Part shown: positions 20,471 to 40,913 of the stretch, one piece after another
Layout of the letters: every line of letters begins with the position of its first letter
Numbering within the stretch: position 1 is the first letter of the stretch
Origin: Desulforamulus putei DSM 12395
Lineage (GTDB): Bacteria > Bacillota > Desulfotomaculia > Desulfotomaculales > Desulfotomaculaceae
NCBI RefSeq assembly: GCF_900129195.1
Contig: NZ_FQUY01000001.1
Location: 186,001-250,000, forward strand
Reading direction: 5' to 3'
DNA length: 64,000 nucleotides
Notes under the pieces: model-generated
Databases searched by the model: none
Told to the model about the DNA's origin: nothing
What the model saw: the letters and a program-made list of their open reading frames with translations, nothing else
Made by a program: the position numbers and the translations under genes

Positions 20471-20516
20471 ATTAAGATTGGAATTGAATATTATGCCTCA
20501 TCTTAGTTTTATCAAA

Positions 20517-20706
20517 GGTGAGGTAGAGGTCGCGGGTTATTAAGAGTACTTGAGATGAGACTGGGAGAGTCAATGAATTTCAAGGAAAGGAATACCTGCC
20601 GAAGCATTTAGAGTTTCCCGCTCTAAATGCTGGGGTTGTGCCGAACAGGTACAACACTGTCACAGGAAATATTCCCTTCATATTTCCTGTGGAGCACTAT
20701 CTTACT
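20517..20706 (+). promoter_or_regulatory. Lysine riboswitch (L box) aptamer
   Basis: The conserved core is readable in order: AGAGGTCGCGG, AGTA, AAGGAATACC..GCCGAAGC, GCTGGGG, ACTGTCAC and GGAGCACTATC. P1 closes as GGTGAGGTAG (20517-20526) with CTATCTTACT (20697-20706), ten pairs including wobbles. The internal helices are also present: GCATTTAGAG/CTCTAAATGC around 20606-20631 and CAGGAAATA/TATTTCCTG around 20663-20690. It senses lysine and here precedes an NhaC-family carrier, a known L-box target class. Confidence 0.92.
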
Positions 20707-20740
20707 ATTTGGAAGGAAAGGAGGAGGCATGGGTATTATT

Positions 20741-31027: not shown

Positions 31028-32809
31028 CTAGTGATGATCTCCGCTGGGCACTTTATCAGGCAGCCCTTCGGGCTTCCTGTAAACGCCGCGCGGTACATAA
31101 TAGGTGTGCAGCAGCTTATGGGATTTTTCGCCCAGGGGTTCACCCAGGAACTCTTCGTAAATGGCTTTGATGGCCGGGTTCTCGTGCGATTTACGGATCG
31201 GCATTGCTTCGTCGGCCTTATAGATACCACCGATACGCTTGAGCCGTACTTCCAGGTTGGTTGGGATGGGCTGGCCGCCGCCGCCGATGCAGCCGCCGGG
31301 GCAGCACATAATTTCAATGAAGTGGTAATCCGCTTCACCGGCCCGGATCTTATCCAGCAGCTTGCGGGCGTTGCCCAGGGTATGGGCAACGGCAACTTTA
31401 ACGTCCAGATCGCCAACCTTCAGGGTGGCTTCCTTAATGCCTTCCATACCACGAACCGGGGTCAGGTTGATATCCGGCATCGGTTCCTTAGTTATAACTT
31501 CGTAAACGGTACGTACAGCAGCCTCCATGACGCCGCCGGTGGCGCCAAAGATAACCGCGGCGCCGGTGGAGAGGCCCATGGGAGCATCGTAATCTTCTTC
31601 GGGCAGGTTTTCCCAATCGATACCGATTTCACGCAGCATACGGGCCAGCTCACGGGTGGTCAGCACAACGTCCACATCCTGGTAGCCGCTGTCTTTCAGC
31701 TCATCCCGCTGGGCCTCGAACTTCTTGGCGGTACAGGGCATGATGGATACGCTGACGATGTTGGCAGGATCAATACCTTTCTTTTCAGCATAGAAGGTCT
31801 TGACCAGGGCCCCGAACATTTGCTGGGGAGACTTACAGGTGGACAGGTGAGCCAGCAGATCAGGATAGTACATTTCAATGTACTTAATCCAGCCGGGGCT
31901 GCAGGAAGTAATCATTGGCAGCACGCCGCCTTCGGTGACGCGCTTGATGAACTCATTGCCTTCTTCAATGATGGTCAGGTCGGCCGTGAAGTCGGTATCC
32001 ATGACACTGTCAAAGCCCAGACGACGCAGAGCGGCAACCAGTTTGCCGGTGCTGACGGTGCCGGGTTCCATACCAAATTCTTCGGCGATGGCTACACGAA
32101 CGGCAGGGGCGGTTTGCACCACAACATGCTTGTTCGGGTCATCCAAGGCTTGCCATACTTTGTCGGTGTCATCTACTTCGGTAATGGCGCCGGTGGGGCA
32201 AACCAAGGAGCACTGGCCGCACATGGTGCAGTTTACATCCATAAGACCCTGATTAAAGGGAGGAGCAACGATGGTTTCAAAACCCCTATTCACAGCGCTG
32301 ATGCACTTGACGCCCTGTACCTTTTCACAAACGGCCACACAACGGCGGCACAGGATGCACTTACGGGGATCACGGACAATTGAGGGCGAAGAGTTATCAA
32401 TATCGTCCTTGCTGTGGCTCTGGGCCGGTCTGACAAAACGGATTTCCTTCAGGCCCATGGCTTCGGACAGGGATTGCAGTTCGCAGTTATTGTTGCGCAG
32501 GCAGGTATTGCACTCCTGCGGGTGGTTGGATTGAATCAGTTCCAGGGTCATTTTGCGGGACGCCCTGACTGCTGCGGAATTGGTTTTAACAACCATTCCT
32601 TCAGCAACGGGGGTAACACAGGCAGCCTGGAGGGCCCGGGCGCCTTGTACTTCGACCACGCAAATACGACATGCTCCAATGGCATTGATATCCTTCATAT
32701 AGCAAAGGGTGGGAATATTAATGCCAATTTTTTTTGCAGCTTCTAAGATCGTTGAACCCTGTTCAACCTCAACTTTTATATTATCAATGGTTAGTGTTAC
32801 GGTTGCCAT
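31028..32809 (-). CDS. hydA: NADH-linked [FeFe] hydrogenase catalytic subunit, copy 1
   Basis: 593 aa. Domains in order: N-terminal [2Fe-2S] (CYMKDINAIGACRICVVEV), His/Cys [4Fe-4S] (HPQECNTCLRNNNC), two [4Fe-4S] (CILCRRCVAVC; CTMCGQCSLVCP), then the H-cluster domain with TSCSPGW, MPCTAKKFEA and EIMCCPGGCIGGGGQP, and a small-subunit-like end. It makes or oxidises H2. Unlike copy 2 it stops after the H-cluster domain and has no C-terminal [2Fe-2S] extension, and its first motif reads TSCSP instead of TSCCP. Start ATG 32809 with GGAGGGG seven bases away. Last gene of hydC-hydB-hydA. Confidence 0.93.
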   Translation of the reverse strand: MATVTLTIDNIKVEVEQGSTILEAAKKIGINIPTLCYMKDINAIGACRICVVEVQGARALQAACVTPVAEGMVVKTNSAAVRASRKMTLELIQSNHPQECNTCLRNNNCELQSLSEAMGLKEIRFVRPAQSHSKDDIDNSSPSIVRDPRKCILCRRCVAVCEKVQGVKCISAVNRGFETIVAPPFNQGLMDVNCTMCGQCSLVCPTGAITEVDDTDKVWQALDDPNKHVVVQTAPAVRVAIAEEFGMEPGTVSTGKLVAALRRLGFDSVMDTDFTADLTIIEEGNEFIKRVTEGGVLPMITSCSPGWIKYIEMYYPDLLAHLSTCKSPQQMFGALVKTFYAEKKGIDPANIVSVSIMPCTAKKFEAQRDELKDSGYQDVDVVLTTRELARMLREIGIDWENLPEEDYDAPMGLSTGAAVIFGATGGVMEAAVRTVYEVITKEPMPDINLTPVRGMEGIKEATLKVGDLDVKVAVAHTLGNARKLLDKIRAGEADYHFIEIMCCPGGCIGGGGQPIPTNLEVRLKRIGGIYKADEAMPIRKSHENPAIKAIYEEFLGEPLGEKSHKLLHTYYVPRGVYRKPEGLPDKVPSGDHH

Positions 32810-32829
32810 GCCTTTTCCCCTCCTATCCA

Positions 32830-34539
32830 CTAGGATTTTAGGCCTTTGCGGGGCATTTTACAAACGCCGGCCGGGCAGGTTTTATCCTTAATGTGCGCTT
32901 CATATTCATCACGGAAATAACGCAGGGTGCTGAGGACGGGGTTCGGAGCGGTTTGACCCAGGCCGCACAGGGCAGAAGCCTTGATGGAGTTGGCTAGTTC
33001 AATTAACAGTTCCAAATCGCCTTCCTTGCCTAACCCCTTTGTGATGCGCTCAAGAATTTCCAGCATTCTCTTGGTACCGATACGGCAGGGGGTACATTTG
33101 CCGCAGGATTCGTCCTGGGTAAAGCCCAGGTAGAACTTCGCCAGGTCAACCATACAGGTTCCTTCATCCACAATAATCATACCGCCGGAACCAACAATAG
33201 AACCAAGGGCTGCCAGGTTTTCATAATCAATAGGAGTATCCAGATAAGCTGCCGGAATGCAGCCGCCGGACGGACCACCGGTTTGGGCAGCCTTAAAGGC
33301 TTTACCGCCTGGGACACCGCCGCCGATGTCTTCCACCATTTCCCGGAGCGTAATGCCCATTGGCACTTCTACCAGACCGGTATTGGTAATCTTACCGGCC
33401 AGCGTAAAGACCTTGGTGCCTTTACTCTTTTCGGTGCCCATGGAAGCATACCAGTCGCCGCCGTTAATAATGATGGGGCAAATGTTGGCCCAGGTTTCGA
33501 CGTTGTTAATAACGGTAGGTTTACCGAACAAACCGGAAACAGCCGGGAAGGGGGGGCGTGGACGGGGCTCGCCGCGCCGACCTTCGATGGAGGCCAGCAG
33601 GGCGGTTTCTTCACCGCATACGAAGGCTCCGGCACCTACACGGATTTCAATGTCAAAACTAAAATCGGTACCCAAAATGTTGTTGCCAAGCAGGCCAACT
33701 TCTCTGGCCCGGTTGAGGGCTTTGGTGAAGTGCTCAATGGCCCTGGGATATTCCAAACGAATGTAAGCGTAACCTTTGTTGGCGCCAACGGCGAAACCGC
33801 CAATGGTCATGGCTTCGATGACGGAATAGGGGTCATCTTCCAGAACCGAGCGGTCCATAAAGGCGCCCGGGTCGCCTTCGTCGCCGTTGCAGACGATATA
33901 TTTCTGGTCAGCCTTTTGATCCAGCACAAATTGCCATTTGACCCCGGTGGGGAAGCCGGCGCCGCCGCGACCACGCAGACCGGATTTCTTAACTTCATCC
34001 ACCACCTGCTGGGGAGTCATTTCCTGCAGGACTTTGGCCAGCGCTTTATAGCCGTCCATGGCAATGTATTCTTCAATGGAGGTCTGGTTGATCAGACCGC
34101 AGTTGCGCAGGGCATTGCGCTTTTGCTTTTTAAAGAAAGTCATGTCGGACTTGCGGGGCTGAACAGACCCGTCAGCCGCATGGTAGCAGAGGCGTTCTAC
34201 ATACTTACCCAGCTTCAGGTGGGAAGTAACAATTTCTTCAGCATCCTCGGGTTGTACGCGGCAGTAGTAATATCCTTCGGGGAAGACGGTGATCACGGGA
34301 CCCATTTCACAGGTACCCATGCAACCGGTTACGACGACCTTTACGGTGTCCTGCAAACCATGGCTGTCAATGGCCTTCCGGAGAGCTTCCAGGGTATTTT
34401 GACAACCAATTGATATACATCCGGTACCACCGCAAACCAGCACATGGTATTTATAATTGTCGGAGGGCTCTTCGCCCAGGCGTAATTTAATAGCTTCCTT
34501 AGCAGTTGCTCTTAATAATTCGAGTTCAGCAAAATTCAT
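32830..34539 (-). CDS. hydB: NADH-linked [FeFe] hydrogenase subunit HydB, copy 1 (no ferredoxin-like tail)
   Basis: 569 aa NuoF-type subunit. The N-terminal thioredoxin-like [2Fe-2S] domain has CGGTGCIS, GCMGTCEMGP; the FMN/NADH core has GLRGRGGAGFPTG and GDEGDPGAFMDR; the [4Fe-4S] motif is ESCGKCTPCRIGT. It oxidises or reduces NAD(H) for HydA. The protein ends right after TCPAGVCKMPRK and lacks the C-terminal 2[4Fe-4S] domain that copy 2 and other bifurcating HydB proteins have. ATG 34539 has GGAGGTG six bases upstream; an in-frame GTG three codons earlier falls inside that site. Confidence 0.93.
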   Translation of the reverse strand: MNFAELELLRATAKEAIKLRLGEEPSDNYKYHVLVCGGTGCISIGCQNTLEALRKAIDSHGLQDTVKVVVTGCMGTCEMGPVITVFPEGYYYCRVQPEDAEEIVTSHLKLGKYVERLCYHAADGSVQPRKSDMTFFKKQKRNALRNCGLINQTSIEEYIAMDGYKALAKVLQEMTPQQVVDEVKKSGLRGRGGAGFPTGVKWQFVLDQKADQKYIVCNGDEGDPGAFMDRSVLEDDPYSVIEAMTIGGFAVGANKGYAYIRLEYPRAIEHFTKALNRAREVGLLGNNILGTDFSFDIEIRVGAGAFVCGEETALLASIEGRRGEPRPRPPFPAVSGLFGKPTVINNVETWANICPIIINGGDWYASMGTEKSKGTKVFTLAGKITNTGLVEVPMGITLREMVEDIGGGVPGGKAFKAAQTGGPSGGCIPAAYLDTPIDYENLAALGSIVGSGGMIIVDEGTCMVDLAKFYLGFTQDESCGKCTPCRIGTKRMLEILERITKGLGKEGDLELLIELANSIKASALCGLGQTAPNPVLSTLRYFRDEYEAHIKDKTCPAGVCKMPRKGLKS

Positions 34540-34561
34540 ATATTTCACCTCCCTGGAGGTT

Positions 34562-35041
34562 TTATTCGTATTTAGCCAGTACTTCAGCTACTTTTTCGGC
34601 AGTCATGCGCGGATAAACTTCGCCGTTTACCGTCATAACCGGCGCAATACCACAGGCGCCCAGGCATCTTACCAGATCCAAGCTAAAGCGGCGGTCTTCT
34701 GTGGTGTTGCCGGCTTTAATGCCCATTTCTTTTTCCAGCATGGCTTGCACTTCGGGAGCGCCCTTCACGTAGCAAGCAGTTCCCAGACACAGGTTGACGG
34801 TATGTCTGCCTCTGGGACGGAGGCTGAAGGCTGCATAAAAGGTGGCCACCCCGTATACGTCACTGAGAGGAACACCTAATTCCTCAGCTGTTTTAATGAG
34901 AAGGTCCTTCGGCAGATAACCGTGAGTCTCTTGGATGGCGGCCATTACCACAATCAGACCGTTGGGATTGCCCTTGTATTGAGCAAACAGGGCATCCAGT
35001 TTATTATCCTGTTCACAATGGCATTTGCACTCTGCACCCAT
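34562..35041 (-). CDS. hydC: NADH-linked [FeFe] hydrogenase subunit HydC, copy 1
   Basis: 159 aa NuoE-like protein: helical N-terminus with HGYLPKDLLIKTAEELGV, then a thioredoxin-like [2Fe-2S] fold with CLGTACYVKGA and CLGACGIAPVM. It passes electrons within the HydABC trimer. AAAGGAGG precedes the ATG. It starts the operon hydC-hydB-hydA; its 5' leader contains the paired RNA element described at 35103-35191. Confidence 0.92.
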   Translation of the reverse strand: MGAECKCHCEQDNKLDALFAQYKGNPNGLIVVMAAIQETHGYLPKDLLIKTAEELGVPLSDVYGVATFYAAFSLRPRGRHTVNLCLGTACYVKGAPEVQAMLEKEMGIKAGNTTEDRRFSLDLVRCLGACGIAPVMTVNGEVYPRMTAEKVAEVLAKYE

Positions 35042-35102
35042 GCGATGGTTCCTCCTTTCGTCGGAAGCGCATATTTTTTACAACTACCTGTTTGTACACC
35101 TT

Positions 35103-35191
35103 GGCTTGATGGATTGCGAAGGCCTGTACTGCTAATTCGTGGAAAGAAAGGTAGCGTGTCTTTGTATTTCTTTTGCTACCCCCATCAAACC
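35103..35191 (-). promoter_or_regulatory. Paired RNA element in the leader of hydrogenase operon 1
   Basis: In minus-strand RNA GGUUUGAUGG (35191-35182) pairs with CCAUCAAGCC (35112-35103). The only non-Watson-Crick pair is G-U on the minus strand and would be C-A on the plus strand. Inside, GGUAGC (35180-35175) pairs with GCUACC (35155-35150), and AAAGAAA (35173-35167) matches UUUCUUU (35149-35143) as a competing hairpin or pseudoknot. The rest of the 376-bp gap to 35417 shows no gene and no convincing promoter. No known riboswitch class was recognised. Confidence 0.5.
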
Positions 35192-35417
35192 CCTGAAAAC
35201 AATTGCAAATCAAGAAGAGTCATAAATTATTTTTGATACCACCACCTTCCAATAAATACCTGGATTACCTAAACTATAACGAAATTAATTAGCGAATAAA
35301 AGAGGACAAGCAAAAAAATTATGGTCTGGTATTGAAAATTTATGATAAAAGATTTAGAATATGACCTTTTCGTGTAGAGAACTTTTGCTGGTTGAACAAC
35401 ATTGAGGGTGGATTGAG

Positions 35418-35621
35418 TTAAGAAATGCTGATCAGTTGACCGTATAGATCAAAAGAGGGTTTTAATTCCGGATATTCCTTGGTAATCATAAAAATAAGTT
35501 GATCATAAGCATCGACACATGGTTCAAACTTTGGTAAATGAAAGCTACTTTCGTTGGTAATGGAGTATTTGGCAATACTTGAGATGATCATTTGCCCGTT
35601 GACCAGTTGTTGTGTACCCAA
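35418..35621 (-). CDS. Small uncharacterised protein upstream of hydrogenase operon 1
   Basis: 67 aa, not recognised. Start TTG 35621 with a full GGAGGTG (about 35628-35634) five or so bases before it, and a plausible promoter upstream, so translation is likely. The sequence is soluble, has one cysteine, and no membrane helix. Its middle (CVDAYDQLIFMITKEYPELK) looks helical. It is followed by the leader and hydC1 without an evident terminator, so it may be the first gene of that operon. Confidence 0.55.
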   Translation of the reverse strand: MGTQQLVNGQMIISSIAKYSITNESSFHLPKFEPCVDAYDQLIFMITKEYPELKPSFDLYGQLISIS

Positions 35622-35762: not shown

Positions 35763-35792
35763 ATTCTAACCTAGAACGTTCGGGAGCGTCAA
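35763..35792 (-). promoter_or_regulatory. Promoter before the 67-aa ORF
   Basis: On the minus strand TTGACG (35792-35787), 18-bp spacer, TAGAAT (35768-35763). It would give a leader of about 135 nt before the 67-aa ORF. The spacer holds the palindrome GAACGTTC. Nothing else was seen in the stretch 35622-35880. Confidence 0.5.
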
Positions 35793-35883
35793 GTGGTTTT
35801 AAGGTGATTTTAAAGCAATTTTTCGACAATAAACAATCCCGGTGAAGAACCAAATCATTAAAATAAGAATGAGTAAAATAATA

Positions 35884-35912
35884 AATGGTGGAGTTAAAAA
35901 TACTCCACCATT
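35884..35912 (-). terminator. Terminator-like hairpin at the end of the 152-aa gene
   Basis: AATGGTGGAGT (35884-35894) pairs perfectly with ACTCCACCATT (35902-35912); the stop codon of the 152-aa gene lies in the loop side. On the minus strand it is followed by TTATTATTTTA. Confidence 0.65.
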
Positions 35913-36352
35913 ACCTTTTTACCTTTTTTCTTGAGCAAATCCACCAGTTCCCTGGCAAACCGGCTCTTCACTATGGGTTTTGCCGGCAAACTGAGGCTTC
36001 GCTGTGATTTATTGAACGCCATACCAATTAAAAAGGAGATGGAGTCAGCCTCTAACAAAGCGGCCACCAGCAGGCCGGCATCCTTATTATCAGCGGGCAA
36101 GGCCTCTAAATGGTCCTTTAAAAGGATGTCCAGCGCCTGGCTTAAAATTAATGTGCCGTCTGTAACCAGCACCAGGCCTGTAACATCGGAGAGTGTTTGG
36201 CTGTTGGGCAAGTAGCGGGAAACCATATTGGCCGTACTGGCGCCGCAAATGATTTTTTTACCCGGCTCGGCTAAAAACATGGACACCATTCTTTCATCAT
36301 CTTCTGGATATTTTGCCGGTCCAATGAGCAAACAGAGATGTTTTTCCATCAT
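35894..36352 (-). CDS. Stand-alone C-terminal domain of hydrogenase-associated SpoIIE-type phosphatase
   Basis: 152 aa. The segments PGKKIICGASTANMVSRYL, GLVLVTDGTLILSQALDIL and LLEADSISFLIGMAFNKSQ resemble, from memory, the region after the PP2C/SpoIIE domain of the phosphatases found in clostridial HydABC operons. The phosphatase domain is absent, and the gene lies just downstream of hydA2 and its terminator, so no frameshifted half is next to it. It has ATG-ATG and only a weak site (GGTGATG). It may bind a ligand or regulate hydrogenase expression; function unknown. Confidence 0.6.
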   Translation of the reverse strand: MMEKHLCLLIGPAKYPEDDERMVSMFLAEPGKKIICGASTANMVSRYLPNSQTLSDVTGLVLVTDGTLILSQALDILLKDHLEALPADNKDAGLLVAALLEADSISFLIGMAFNKSQRSLSLPAKPIVKSRFARELVDLLKKKGKKVMVEYF

Positions 36353-36377
36353 TTATCATCACCAAATGTATTTTAAC

Positions 36378-36410
36378 ATAAAAAAGAAGGTGCTAACCAC
36401 TGTTAGCACC
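36378..36410 (-). terminator. Intrinsic terminator of hydrogenase operon 2
   Basis: GGTGCTAAC (36389-36397) pairs with GTTAGCACC (36402-36410); on the minus strand TTCTTTTTTAT follows the stem. It separates hydA2 from the 152-aa gene. Confidence 0.85.
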
Positions 36411-36433
36411 CGGAAACAATCATTTTTTGCAGG

Positions 36434-38410
36434 TTACAAACAGGTACTGCAGTTGCAACCGCAGTTTGCTTTAATGGCTTCCATGACATTCTCTGCCTTT
36501 ACGTTTTGGATCTGGCTGTTCACCTTCACGGAAACACCGTCGCCGCAGCTTTCAAGACAGAATACACCCTTCACCTTGACAGGCAGGGCAAGGAGTTTTT
36601 CCACCACTGCCAGAGAGCCTTTCTTTAAGCAGCCTTCGCCCAGGCAAACGGTAATTTCGGGGCCTTCACCGTCTTTAATAAGGATTTCGTTGCCGGCAAT
36701 GCGTTTTTTAGGACGGTAATGGGTATGCAGATCATGGTGTGTTTCATGGTTGCAGCAACCGCCCCAGTACTTTTCGAAAATCTTATCCAGGTCCTCGTTG
36801 TCCTGGGCCTTGTGCAGAACCAATTTAGCATCAATATTATAAATCTCCCTGGCCCGGGCTTGACGGCGTTCACCGTCGTTCTGGAAAGGCTGTCCGCCGC
36901 CGCCGACGCAGCCGCCGGGGCAAGCCATGACCTCCACGGCATGAACCGTCAGTTCGCCGGACTGGATTTTCTTAATCAGTTCTTCAGCTGCTGCCAGGCC
37001 GTTGACCACAGCCAGGGTTAACTTGTTGTCACCGACATTGATGCTGGCTATCTTGGTATCTTCCATACCCCTGGTAAACTCTACGTCAACCCGTCCTTCA
37101 GCGTTAAGCAGTTTGCCTGCTACATATCGAACCACAGACTCCATGACGCCGCCGGTGGTACCGAAAAGGACGCCGGAACCGGTGGTCTGCTGCATGGGTT
37201 GGTCGAACTCGGAATCTTCCAGAGCATCGAAAATGATGCCGGCTTCTCTGAACATACGGGCTGCTTCCACGGTTGTTAAAACAGCGTCTACATCATAGGA
37301 GCCTTCGGTCATGAATTCCGGCCGCCTGGCTTCGTATTTCTTGGCGGTGCAGGGCATGATGGAGACCACAAACATGTCCTCCGGTGCGATACCCAGGTCT
37401 TTTGAGTATTTCTTCTTTAATACCGAACCGAACATCTGCTGCGGTGAGCGGCAGGAGGACAGATTATTCAACAGTTCGGGATGGAATTCCTCGGCATATT
37501 TTACCCATCCGGGGCAGCAGGAGGTAAAGAGCGGCAGGTTTTCACCCTTGACCAAACGTGCTAAGAATTCATTGGACTCTTCAACGGTTGTCATATCTGC
37601 GGCGAACGCTGTATCAAAAACCTTGTTGAAACCGATTCTGCGCAGGGCAGCAACAATCTTACCGGTGACATCAACGGAACCCAGGCCGAATTCTTCGCCC
37701 AGAGCAGCCCGGGGTGCCGGGGCAATTTGGCAGACTACGGTCTTCTTGGGATCGCGGATGGCTGCCCAGACCTCTTCAATAGCAGAAGAATTGGAAGTCA
37801 GAGCGCCACAGGGACAGACGGCAATACACTGGCCGCAGTTAATGCAGGAGGATTCAGCCAGGGGCTGGTCCATGGCGGCCACGATTTCGGTACGGGAGCC
37901 GCGGTTTTTGAAGTCCCAAACGCCGATGCCCTGTTTTTCCTTGCAAACCCGCACACAGAGGCCGCACAGGATGCATTTGTTAGGATCGCGGACCACCGAC
38001 AGGCTGGAAGTATCCAGCGGAGCCTTAACGGTGCGGCTGGGATAACGCAGCCGTTTGATGCCGTAGTCATTGGCATATTTTTGGAGTTTGCAAGCGCCGC
38101 TGGAGTCACAGGTGGTGCACTCACGGTCGTGGTTGGCCAACAATAATTCAAGAACCATTTTACGTACTCTGTTAACCCGCTCGGAATTGGTATAGACCAC
38201 CATGCCGTCGACAGGAGCGGTGGAGCAAGAGGCCTGAATGCCCATCCGTTCAATTTCCACTACACAGAGGCGGCAAGCGCCGGCAATGGTCAGTTCCGGG
38301 TGGTAACAAAGGGTAGGGATATCGATACCGGCCTTACGTGCTACAGCCAGAATATTTTTCTCATCGGTAAAATCTATTACTTGTCCGTTAATGGTTATTT
38401 TACCACTCAT
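36434..38410 (-). CDS. hydA: [FeFe] hydrogenase catalytic subunit, copy 2, with C-terminal [2Fe-2S]-type domain
   Basis: 658 aa. The N-terminal [2Fe-2S] (CYHPELTIAGACRLCVVEI), His/Cys cluster (HDRECTTCDSSGAC) and two [4Fe-4S] motifs (CILCGLCVRVC; CINCGQCIAVCP) lead to the H-cluster domain with TSCCPGW, MPCTAKKYEA and EVMACPGGCVGGGGQP. About 80 further residues carry CLGEGCLKKGS and CLESCGDG, a thioredoxin-like [2Fe-2S] fold, and the protein ends in a Cys-rich CGCNCSTCL tail. This is the layout of HydA in electron-bifurcating NADH/ferredoxin hydrogenases. GTG 38413 and ATG 38410 are alternatives; AAAGGG lies upstream. Last gene before the terminator. Confidence 0.94.
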   Translation of the reverse strand: MSGKITINGQVIDFTDEKNILAVARKAGIDIPTLCYHPELTIAGACRLCVVEIERMGIQASCSTAPVDGMVVYTNSERVNRVRKMVLELLLANHDRECTTCDSSGACKLQKYANDYGIKRLRYPSRTVKAPLDTSSLSVVRDPNKCILCGLCVRVCKEKQGIGVWDFKNRGSRTEIVAAMDQPLAESSCINCGQCIAVCPCGALTSNSSAIEEVWAAIRDPKKTVVCQIAPAPRAALGEEFGLGSVDVTGKIVAALRRIGFNKVFDTAFAADMTTVEESNEFLARLVKGENLPLFTSCCPGWVKYAEEFHPELLNNLSSCRSPQQMFGSVLKKKYSKDLGIAPEDMFVVSIMPCTAKKYEARRPEFMTEGSYDVDAVLTTVEAARMFREAGIIFDALEDSEFDQPMQQTTGSGVLFGTTGGVMESVVRYVAGKLLNAEGRVDVEFTRGMEDTKIASINVGDNKLTLAVVNGLAAAEELIKKIQSGELTVHAVEVMACPGGCVGGGGQPFQNDGERRQARAREIYNIDAKLVLHKAQDNEDLDKIFEKYWGGCCNHETHHDLHTHYRPKKRIAGNEILIKDGEGPEITVCLGEGCLKKGSLAVVEKLLALPVKVKGVFCLESCGDGVSVKVNSQIQNVKAENVMEAIKANCGCNCSTCL

Positions 38411-38442
38411 CACGTCACGCCCTTTCTCTCAATATTCAGGTA

Positions 38443-40323
38443 CTACCTGATCATGATGGCTCCAAACTTACATTTCTCCATGCAGGCGCCGCACTTGAGG
38501 CAAAGCTCTACATTGATAACGTGGGGCTGCTTTTTGTCACCGGTAATGGCACCGGCAGGACATACTCTGGCACAAACAGTGCAACCTTTGCATTTTTCAG
38601 GATCAATGTAGTATTCTTTCAGAGCCTGGCAAGCACCGGCAGGGCACTTTTTATCCCGGACGTGTGCGATGTACTCATCACGGAAGTAACGGAGAGTGGT
38701 GAGGACCGGGTTAGGAGCAGTCTTACCGAGACCGCAAAGGGAGCCGTCTTTAACATTCTGGGCCAGTTCCTCCAGCAGAGCCAGGTCTTCCTCGGTACCT
38801 TTACCCTCGGTAATCTTGGTTAACAAAGCCAGCATTTGCTTGGTGCCCTCGCGGCAGGGAACACATTTGCCACAGGATTCGTTTTGTACAAAGCCCATAA
38901 AGAACTTGGCTGTCTCAACCATACAGGTATCGTCGCCCATCACCACCAGACCGCCGGAACCGATCATGGCGCCGACCTTCATGAGCTCATCATAATCCAG
39001 GGGCAGATCCAGTTTTTCTTCGGTTAAGCAGCCGCCGGAGGGACCGCCGATTTGAACGGACTTGTATTTTTTCCCCTCCCGCAAACCGCCGCCGATATCA
39101 AATACGATTTCCCGCAGGGTCATACCCATGGGAACTTCCACCAGACCGGTGTTTTGGATCTGACCGGCTAGGGCAAAGGTCTTTGTACCGGCGCTGCCAG
39201 GTGTGCCAAAGCCTTTGAACCATGCGGCGCCGTTCATAATAATGGCGGGCAGGTTGGCCAGTGTTTCTACGTTATTAATAACGGTAGGACAGCCCCACAG
39301 ACCTTTAACGGCAGGGAAGGGAGGACGGGGACGGGGCATACCGCGCTCACCCTCGATGGAAGCGATCAGGGCAGTTTCCTCACCGCAGACGAAAGCGCCG
39401 GCGCCCTCCTTAATGTGAATCTTAAAGTTGAAATCTGTGCCTAAAACGTTTCTACCCAGTAAGCCCAAGGCTTCTGCGTCGGCAATGGCCTTGCGCATGC
39501 GCTTGATGGCTAGCGGATATTCGGCGCGGGCGTAAATATAACCTTCGTCCGCTCCGATGGCAAAACCGGCAATCATCATGCCTTCCAGCACCGAGTGGGG
39601 GTTGCCTTCCATAACGGAACGATCCATGAAAGCGCCCGGGTCGCCTTCGTCACCGTTGCAGATGACGTATTTTTTGGGGCCCGGTTGGGCAGCGGCAAAG
39701 GACCACTTGCGACCGGTGGGGAAACCGCCGCCGCCACGGCCGCGCAGACCGGAATCAGAAACTTCTTTAATGACTTCTTCGGGTTTCATACCGGTTAAAA
39801 TTTTGGCAATGGCCTGGTAACCGCCATGGGCAATGTAGTCATTGATATTATCGGGGTCGATACGACCGCATTCTTTCAAAGTAACCCTTACCTGGCGCTT
39901 ATAGAAAGGAATCTCGTCCTGGGTTTTCACTTTTTCCCCGGTGTTCGGATCCACGTAAAGCAAACGGTTAACAATGCCGTTATTCACAATTGTTGTTTCA
40001 ACAATTTCTGCACAGTCCTCTTGCTGAACTTTGCAGTAAAGCAAACCGGAGGGTTCAAAGCGTACCAGGGGACCCATCTGGCAGAAGCCATGGCAACCGC
40101 TGATGCTTACGCCTATGCCTTCATGACTGACTTCTTTCACCAGGTCAACTTCGGCCAGCAGACCTTTTTCAGCAATAAGATTTTTTAAACTTTCATATAC
40201 CTTCAGCGACCCATTGGCTACACAGCCGGTACCGGCACAGACCAAGATGCGCATTTTTTGGTCGGCCAGTGCAGCTTTGGCTTTTTGTTGCAGCTTTAAT
40301 AAATCTTCTCGTGACTTAAGCAT
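38443..40323 (-). CDS. hydB: [FeFe] hydrogenase subunit HydB, copy 2, with 2[4Fe-4S] tail
   Basis: 626 aa NuoF-type subunit: N-terminal [2Fe-2S] thioredoxin-like domain (CAGTGCVANGS; SGCHGFCQMGP), FMN/NADH core (GLRGRGGGGFPTG, GDEGDPGAFMDR), ESCGKCVPCREGT [4Fe-4S], then a C-terminal ferredoxin domain with CKGCTVCARVCP and CLKCGACMEKCKFG. The extra domain is found in confirmed bifurcating HydABC enzymes, where ferredoxin and NADH are used together. GGGGGG lies before ATG 40323. hydC2 is 14 bases upstream. Confidence 0.94.
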   Translation of the reverse strand: MLKSREDLLKLQQKAKAALADQKMRILVCAGTGCVANGSLKVYESLKNLIAEKGLLAEVDLVKEVSHEGIGVSISGCHGFCQMGPLVRFEPSGLLYCKVQQEDCAEIVETTIVNNGIVNRLLYVDPNTGEKVKTQDEIPFYKRQVRVTLKECGRIDPDNINDYIAHGGYQAIAKILTGMKPEEVIKEVSDSGLRGRGGGGFPTGRKWSFAAAQPGPKKYVICNGDEGDPGAFMDRSVMEGNPHSVLEGMMIAGFAIGADEGYIYARAEYPLAIKRMRKAIADAEALGLLGRNVLGTDFNFKIHIKEGAGAFVCGEETALIASIEGERGMPRPRPPFPAVKGLWGCPTVINNVETLANLPAIIMNGAAWFKGFGTPGSAGTKTFALAGQIQNTGLVEVPMGMTLREIVFDIGGGLREGKKYKSVQIGGPSGGCLTEEKLDLPLDYDELMKVGAMIGSGGLVVMGDDTCMVETAKFFMGFVQNESCGKCVPCREGTKQMLALLTKITEGKGTEEDLALLEELAQNVKDGSLCGLGKTAPNPVLTTLRYFRDEYIAHVRDKKCPAGACQALKEYYIDPEKCKGCTVCARVCPAGAITGDKKQPHVINVELCLKCGACMEKCKFGAIMIR

Positions 40324-40336
40324 CTATGGTCCCCCC

Positions 40337-40828
40337 TTAGTTTTCACTGGCAGCGTTTGCCAATTTTTTAATAATTTCTAAGATTCCGTCCGGCGTCATT
40401 TGCCCGTGAACTTCCTCATCGGCTACGACAACCGGGGCCAATCCGCATGCCCCTAAGCAGGAGACAGTCTCAACGGTAAACATGAGGTCGCTGGTGGTGG
40501 GATTGTCCGGCGTAAGGGATAACTCTTTACGGAGCGCCATCATAATCGGTTCGGAACCCCGCACGTGACAGGCGGTGCCGTCACAAACACGGATCACATA
40601 TTTGCCTTTAGGAATAAGGGAAAACTGGGCATAGAAAGTTGCCACACCCAATACAGTGGCAGGGGAAATACCCATGGCAGTGGCTATGTACGTCAGCGCT
40701 TCTTTTGGAAGATATCCATATTCTGCTTGGGTCTCCTGAAGTATGGCGATAAGGTGAGAAACCTTACCTTCATGTGAATCGATAATTTGCTGTAGTTTTA
40801 AGAATTTTATATCTCTGTTCTCCATCAT
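40337..40828 (-). CDS. hydC: [FeFe] hydrogenase subunit HydC, copy 2
   Basis: 163 aa NuoE-like [2Fe-2S] protein with EYGYLPKEALTYIATAMGI, CDGTACHVRGS and CLGACGLAPVVV. First gene of operon 2. Two successive ATGs (40828 and 40825) follow AGGGGGG; the frame is open further upstream without a site. Together with HydB2 and HydA2 it should form the trimer. Confidence 0.92.
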   Translation of the reverse strand: MMENRDIKFLKLQQIIDSHEGKVSHLIAILQETQAEYGYLPKEALTYIATAMGISPATVLGVATFYAQFSLIPKGKYVIRVCDGTACHVRGSEPIMMALRKELSLTPDNPTTSDLMFTVETVSCLGACGLAPVVVADEEVHGQMTPDGILEIIKKLANAASEN

Positions 40829-40913
40829 AAACCCCCCTTTGGTGTAGGAAACCACTTGAACATCTGCTAAAAATTCAACGACGCAACCTGAAGCAAATTC
40901 TGGAATATCACCT

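Follow-up and report, generated by a model that had tools for sequence, protein, structure and literature searches.

A group C sensory hydrogenase that carries a PAS domain and is associated with a putative Ser/Thr phosphatase was proposed to sense H2 (PMC6776011). A related gene set, hfsABCD, was described in which HfsB resembles HydS and HfsC resembles serine phosphatases (PMC11837493, PMC5707799). In Thermoanaerobacterium, flux is shifted to lactate when hfsC or hfsD is deleted (PMC5707799), the exact mechanism of the hfsB/C and hfsD mutations being still not known (PMC13277313), and the physiological role of HydS has been called unclear (PMC10055695). The name HfsC-like is based here on gene order and domain (PMC5707799, PMC11837493). 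The excerpts of the open-licence literature that were searched contain no description of the tail domain of these phosphatases or of a stand-alone copy of it.

The window analyzed here, 64,000 nts in length, belongs to a 3.1 Mb genome of the genus Desulforamulus. It contains a 152-aa stand-alone gene, labelled SOLO in the following, with its ATG at 36352 and its stop codon ending at 35894 on the minus strand (Table 1). SOLO is flanked by two three-gene hyd operons (operon 1, 31028-35041; operon 2, 36434-40855), all on the minus strand, in which the subunit order NuoE-like, NuoF-like, catalytic is common to both. The coordinates given for this ORF in the original prediction were borne out, its three quoted motifs are present in the translation and the strand is minus. 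Its placement of the gene between two hyd operons, behind the terminator of operon 2, agrees with the gene order and with a terminator-like hairpin at 36411-36388, and by eye a hairpin precedes the other seven SOLO genes as well; since 18 terminator-like sites were found in the region versus 9.3 in shuffles, each single site is weak evidence and no proof.

Table 1. Features of the SOLO locus, in window coordinates.
Feature	Position	Strand	Basis
Hyd operon 1 catalytic subunit	31028..32830	minus	NCBIfam group A6, over cut-off; Pfam/NCBIfam
Hyd operon 1 NuoF-like subunit	32830..34548	minus	Pfam/NCBIfam
Hyd operon 1 NuoE-like subunit	34562..35041	minus	Pfam/NCBIfam
Small ORF (67 aa, start codon TTG) in the gap from SOLO to hyd operon 1	35418..35621	minus	Conservation
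Terminator-like hairpin overlapping the SOLO stop codon/3′ end	35884..35912	minus	Terminator scan
SOLO, C-terminal domain alone of an HfsC-like SpoIIE phosphatase, 152 aa	35894..36352	minus	ORF and homology
Ribosome-binding-like GGTGATG before the SOLO start	36357..36363	minus	Sequence
Extended -10-like motif TGNTANAAT of SOLO	36370..36378	minus	8/8 orthologous loci
Terminator-like hairpin and T run after hyd operon 2	36388..36411	minus	Terminator scan
Hyd operon 2 catalytic [FeFe]-hydrogenase subunit	36434..38413	minus	NCBIfam group A, over cut-off; Pfam/NCBIfam
Hyd operon 2 NuoF-like subunit	38443..40323	minus	Pfam/NCBIfam
Hyd operon 2 NuoE-like [2Fe-2S] subunit	40337..40855	minus	Pfam/NCBIfam

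A search of its own genome matched SOLO to the last ~160 residues of a 386-aa SpoIIE phosphatase (34% identity, E 9.1e-16), and the reverse search with this full-length paralogue returned SOLO over residues 225-386 of the 386 (E 7.8e-15). The paralogue, which lies ~69 kb from SOLO on the same contig, carries a SpoIIE PP2C domain (PF07228) at residues 38-222. The gene immediately in front of the paralogue combines [FeFe]-hydrogenase, FeS and PAS domains and by this content encodes a HydS/HfsB-type sensory hydrogenase. SOLO stands directly behind hyd2A, not behind HydS, while the full-length paralogue does follow HydS. With 152 aa, aligned to paralogue residues 225-386 only, SOLO is without the PP2C domain. 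The claim that it is a phosphatase C-terminal domain alone, the phosphatase domain missing, is thus upheld by the pairwise similarity and by the extent of the alignment; SOLO does match SpoIIE phosphatase C-termini, and the genome does hold a full-length homologue, beside HydS. By sequence comparison, SOLO is confirmed as homologous to the C-terminal domain of a HydS-linked (HfsC-like) SpoIIE-type phosphatase and to no other part of it.

This C-terminal domain of ~160 aa is marked by invariant GP, CG, TxG and GxAxN residues. The eight stand-alone genes of the genus match profile A1, which includes them, with E 1.7e-54 to 1.7e-57, and SOLO matches a profile that includes SOLO with E 1.5e-56. 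All three full-length relatives tested were SpoIIE-type PP2C phosphatases by sequence. Searches of Pfam and NCBIfam with SOLO gave no match at E values up to 10. Alignment A2 combines SOLO with 79 of the 80 best named loci (L095 omitted), and A3 comprises 59 of the 79 full-length loci; Pfam searches with each of the 80 A2 members gave scattered weak matches, none common to more than four members, and a profile search of PDB sequences with the SOLO domain gave four weak matches (best E 0.093).

In a single-protein search at E <= 0.01, 28 of 60 genomes (its own included) gave a match, one of which (L032, E 0.0018) was judged by eye to be a different protein and dropped. A second match in the genome of the window (L003, E 0.035), antisense to a 699-aa frame that looks by eye like a CheA-like kinase, was also dropped. 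Intact stand-alone SOLO genes, in frames of 152-176 aa, occur in eight of the nine Desulforamulus genomes, and a second match in a longer frame (297-399 aa) is found in all eight, so that SOLO was not seen without an accompanying phosphatase frame. The ninth genome (G006) has the long-frame match only; both operons and the hairpin are present, and the gap between the operons gives no match to SOLO. The absence of SOLO from one species of the genus provides a natural comparison.

Beyond the genus, the domain is present in 46 of 113 genomes of a class sample and in 122 of 398 of a phylum sample, two samples that overlap. Nearly all domain-bearing frames outside Desulforamulus in these samples are at least 271 aa long, and neither sample yielded a confirmed stand-alone copy outside the genus. 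Six candidates (G378, G355, G491, G486, G354 and G097) were rejected as stand-alone copies, since each has phosphatase sequence ahead of the domain in a different frame, lies at a contig end or is interrupted in some other way. Five more (G442, G225, G394, G142 and G109) look split or edge-cut, as judged from partial matches only, and stand-alone status is possible for these. Among the best 80 of at least 542 confirmed relatives, the Desulforamulus locus is the only one that is short without a visible break; in the same set, the frames of L061 and L063 run off a contig end, and that of L121 is 297 aa long. Stand-alone copies could be under-represented here, as the alignment behind the scan pattern consisted mostly of fused copies. 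Neither a pattern scan of viral contigs nor a single-protein scan of genome contigs led to a confirmed relative.

The order hyd2C-B-A, SOLO, hyd1C-B-A is conserved in all eight genomes, with nadE, yebC and ruvC on the hyd2 side. In 8 of 12 loci fetched from other families of the order (L047, L048, L145-L149 and L151; families f3, f9, f11 and f16), a hyd2A-like gene is followed by HydS and a full-length phosphatase, hyd2-like meaning that the best match is to operon 2 of the window (50-59% for hyd2A). The named locus L067 shows the same arrangement. The phosphatase does not stand behind a hyd2A-like gene in the four remaining loci, of which L144 has a hyd1A-like gene at that place and L044, L045 and L150 have neither, and in two named Pelotomaculum loci (L057 and L060) the HydS-phosphatase pair precedes hyd2C. 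Among the best 80 of at least 542 relatives, a HydS-like gene lies just upstream, whole or partly aligned, in 72 of the 79 named full-length loci (alignment of more than 400 aa ending just upstream in 61, partly aligned only in 11). Three of the other loci are at contig ends and four have no HydS-like gene by the alignment rule, two of which (L111 and L118) do show HydS in the locus view. In the same set, a hydA- or hydB-like match is found near 70 of the 79. A rearranged locus was also observed (L157, in G097), in which NuoE-like sequence and an incomplete NuoF-like stretch continue into the middle part of the phosphatase.

Since HydS and a full-length phosphatase occupy the place of SOLO in several other families, SOLO probably represents an old copy that was truncated and came under new selection, and that would have evolved fast after truncation. 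In a tree of 55 rows, SOLO forms a single clade (100/100) on a long stem branch. Its derivation as a recent duplicate of the genus's own phosphatase tail was rejected, grouping with the full-length tails of its own family or genus being excluded at p-AU 0.0035 in a test that was chosen after the first tree had been seen and that calls for long-branch caution. Grouping with the hyd2-linked phosphatases of the order was not rejected (p 0.18) and not favoured either. The first tree had joined SOLO to the very divergent L031, which was flagged as a meeting of long branches and then left out; the trees comprised 50 and 55 hand-picked rows. Because of the long stem branch, the tree does not settle the origin of SOLO. 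L031 itself, from G048, is a very divergent version of the phosphatase.

Selection on SOLO was estimated at dN/dS 0.098 for dS 0.18 (G005/G001) and 0.12 for dS 1.5 (window/G003), with a median of 0.11 over the 7 usable of 28 pairs. The control medians are 0.046 for hyd2C (NuoE-like) and 0.085 for the phosphatase tail, and the hyd2C pair G005/G001 reaches 0.203, above the 0.098 of SOLO. Mean identity is 69% for SOLO, 77% for the phosphatase tail and 88% for hyd2C, in sets that differ slightly in genomes: G007 was omitted from the full-length and hyd2C sets, its assembly being broken there, and G006 is without SOLO. Judged by dN/dS and mean identity against these controls, the SOLO sequence is constrained, yet evolving faster than its neighbours. 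Its frame is intact in all eight genomes although the neighbouring hyd genes of the G007 assembly are in pieces.

Upstream of SOLO, all eight loci have the motif TGNTANAAT, starting 25-27 bases ahead of the gene. When the last 60 bases were shuffled 1000 times by mononucleotide, the motif was present in 0.1 of the 8 loci on average and in 2 at most. Because these upstream sequences are related, the motif counts as a single conserved promoter-like site rather than as eight independent occurrences. A -35 element was not found in the upstream region and a sigma-70 scan lists no promoter there; read-through from operon 2 into SOLO is possible. The ribosome-binding-like site before the start is likewise kept in all eight genomes, and from these sequence features SOLO looks like a functional gene. 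The suggestion that the domain has a job of its own finds indirect support in its conservation in eight of nine genomes of the genus, its low dN/dS and the conserved promoter-like motif.

Other conserved elements were observed in the window. The 67-aa small ORF between SOLO and hyd operon 1 is preceded by a GGAGGTG ribosome-binding site, occurs in all nine genomes of the genus and in none of the 104 other genomes of the class sample, shows pairwise dN/dS of 0.12-0.78 and has no match in Pfam or NCBIfam. Before it, at ~35763-35795 (minus), lies a strongly conserved promoter-like block, TTGACG ... TAGAAT, whose spacer contains by eye the palindrome GAACGTTC in seven of nine genomes; this GAACGTTC block is possibly a regulator site. 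In the leader of hyd operon 1 (35042-35260, minus), GGTGGTGGT and GGTAGCAAAA...GCTACC recur by eye in several of the nine genomes, and the leader may be structured. Rfam gave no plausible RNA family between the two operons, this leader included. A lysine riboswitch aptamer (136 bits) is located at 20516-20707 (plus).

The AlphaFold2 model of SOLO (80 rows; pLDDT 86, pTM 0.82) has a five-stranded alpha/beta layout, and its fold is predicted to be Rossmann-like. The same elements recur after the PP2C domain in the model of a full-length relative (L087; pLDDT 90, pTM 0.83), in line with SOLO being a phosphatase tail domain, with the difference that the short strands 274-276 and 287-290 of L087 are absent from SOLO. 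Foldseek returned no match at E <= 0.001 with the SOLO model; with the full-length model it returned PP2C structures (Sphaerobacter phosphatase, SpoIIE; E 1.5e-15 to 5e-13), the best of which align over ~225 columns, the size of the PP2C part. VIA-align with SOLO placed formylmethanofuran-dehydrogenase-like and NuoG Rossmann-like domains first (Z 9.7-8.6, rmsd 3.4-3.8, 116-128 residues, 11-14% identity), with unrelated rows at Z <=7.6; as models without a clear match typically reach a best Z of 7 to 8, this signal is modest. Assignment of the SOLO domain as a molybdopterin-oxidoreductase Rossmann domain found no profile support: the fold reaches Z 9.7, but a comparison of the SOLO-domain profile with the PF00384 regions of all 20 molybdopterin loci, taken from related genomes, gave an hhalign probability of 0.2%. 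An MGS-like domain found no profile support either (hhalign probability 0.7% over 13 columns against MGS domains of related genomes, 28 of 30 loci, L170 and L179 omitted), and PF02142 is absent from the Pfam matches of the 80 A2 members.

Ligand sites of Rossmann-like folds involve the residues that follow the strands. Conservation was compared column by column with 95 full-length domains, of which A1 supplied 22 and A2 supplied 73 (out of 78, less 5 duplicates). At least 90% conservation is seen in 23 columns, of which 13 are unchanged in all eight SOLOs (G11, P12, D19, G31, K33, C36, G37, T64, G66, G110, N114, L140 and K145), 5 are partly kept and 5 are changed. Eight of the 13 kept residues are at the C-terminal ends of predicted strands in the SOLO model; the conserved residues follow predicted strands 1 to 4, and an invariant Cys is among the kept strand-end loops. 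Conversely, P13 is changed to A, D61 to non-polar residues and E65 to D, and the PP of the PPxG loop is mostly lost. The stretch KSQRSLS (115-121) is identical in all eight SOLOs, each of its letters being present in less than 10% of the 95 full-length domains. Outside the 23 columns, 17 positions are invariant in SOLO and below 10% in the fused form, 8 of them within residues 115-125. The retention of strand-end loops, with loss of the PPxG hairpin and replacement of one loop, suggests a ligand or partner domain with changed specificity; with 5 of 23 columns changed, 5 partly kept and a loop replaced, SOLO may no longer bind the target of the parent domain.

From this anatomy (homology to the phosphatase tail, absence of PP2C, fixed location, purifying selection, a promoter-like motif and many invariant family residues kept within a rebuilt rim) we infer a mechanism. 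A HydS-phosphatase copy would once have stood behind hyd operon 2 and would have lost HydS and its PP2C part, the C-terminal domain remaining. SOLO would then be a diffusible one-domain protein acting in trans in the H2-sensing pathway, where it would bind the ligand or partner (or a variant thereof) that the full-length phosphatase recognizes through the same domain; this binding would tune HydS-phosphatase signalling to the hydrogenases. Such a regulatory domain, acting in trans in the HydS-phosphatase pathway of H2 sensing and derived from the copy behind hyd operon 2, is our tentative preference, held with a little less than even confidence; the original idea of sensing or binding connected with hydrogenase control may likewise be read from the pocket-like loops and the location. 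A bolder version is doubtful, namely that SOLO is a new kind of trans-acting H2-sensing regulator (detached tail, own promoter, remodelled pocket) which is in competition with the HydS-linked phosphatase, or reports to it, and thereby sets the balance between the two neighbouring [FeFe]-hydrogenase operons.

The most likely reading is therefore a domain that acts in trans in H2 sensing by binding a ligand or partner. Second comes one in which SOLO acts outside this pathway, as an independent small-molecule binder or a small enzyme, with a new ligand and in direct service of the hyd enzymes or of redox metabolism. The rebuilt pocket (changes at P13, D61, E65 and PPxG; KSQRSLS in 8/8), the long stem branch and the predicted Rossmann-like fold with its distant similarity to cofactor-binding domains speak for such a binder, which we nevertheless consider rather unlikely, as SOLO is accompanied by a longer phosphatase frame in all eight genomes, keeps a constant location in all eight and retains 13 of the 23 conserved columns. 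The position of SOLO, which is that of the phosphatase in several relatives, the gap without a match in G006 and the faster evolution relative to the NuoE-like control (69% versus 88% identity; median dN/dS 0.11 versus 0.046) would also be consistent with a functionless, decaying remnant of a deleted HydS-phosphatase copy. However, a decaying frame would hardly be intact in 8/8 beside the broken hyd genes of the G007 assembly, show dN/dS ~0.1, keep promoter-like and ribosome-binding-like sites in 8/8 and acquire 17 newly invariant positions, which makes a remnant improbable.

Fused signalling proteins commonly have split versions, and two short SpoIIE-type frames (228 and 241 aa) in the genome could in principle supply a separate stand-alone PP2C protein that pairs with SOLO to rebuild a two-domain phosphatase. 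However, the full-length query returned from its own genome only itself, SOLO and a large SpoIIE-like frame, not the 228- and 241-aa frames; with no free PP2C close to the subfamily in this genome, the split phosphatase was rejected as improbable. Least probable of all is that the stand-alone domain is ancestral and the fused phosphatases were derived from it: SOLO does fall outside the full-length clade of its own genus in the tree, but confirmed stand-alone copies are restricted to one genus, fused copies occur under many phylum names among the matches listed, and the class and phylum samples hold no confirmed stand-alone copy outside the genus.

Neither Pfam nor NCBIfam has a model for the tail domain of the partner phosphatase. 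If the bolder version above is true, this domain would be a ligand-binding family not described before, with members in hundreds of HydS-linked phosphatases. Being this tail domain alone, conserved beside hydrogenase operons, SOLO is a convenient handle, by which the domain can be expressed, screened for ligands or partners and crystallized without the phosphatase.

Compared with known systems, the best structural likeness of the SOLO model is to the Rossmann-like domain of formylmethanofuran dehydrogenase and NuoG, a similarity of fold only. The MGS-like domain (PF02142) shows by eye a similar GG-T loop after a strand, and 1vmd is third in the Foldseek ranking, a weak match (E 8.9e-3). With the SpoIIE, RsbU and RsbX PP2C phosphatases, the full-length relative shares the catalytic fold, whereas SOLO has none of the catalytic domain. 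The closest system is the HfsC-like, HydS-linked phosphatase: SOLO differs from it in having no PP2C domain and no adjoining HydS, in the loss of most of the PPxG hairpin, in the replaced loop 115-125 and in its own promoter-like motif, but is homologous to it along the whole C-terminal domain, with conserved GP, CG, TxG and GxAxN, and shares its hydrogenase neighbourhood.
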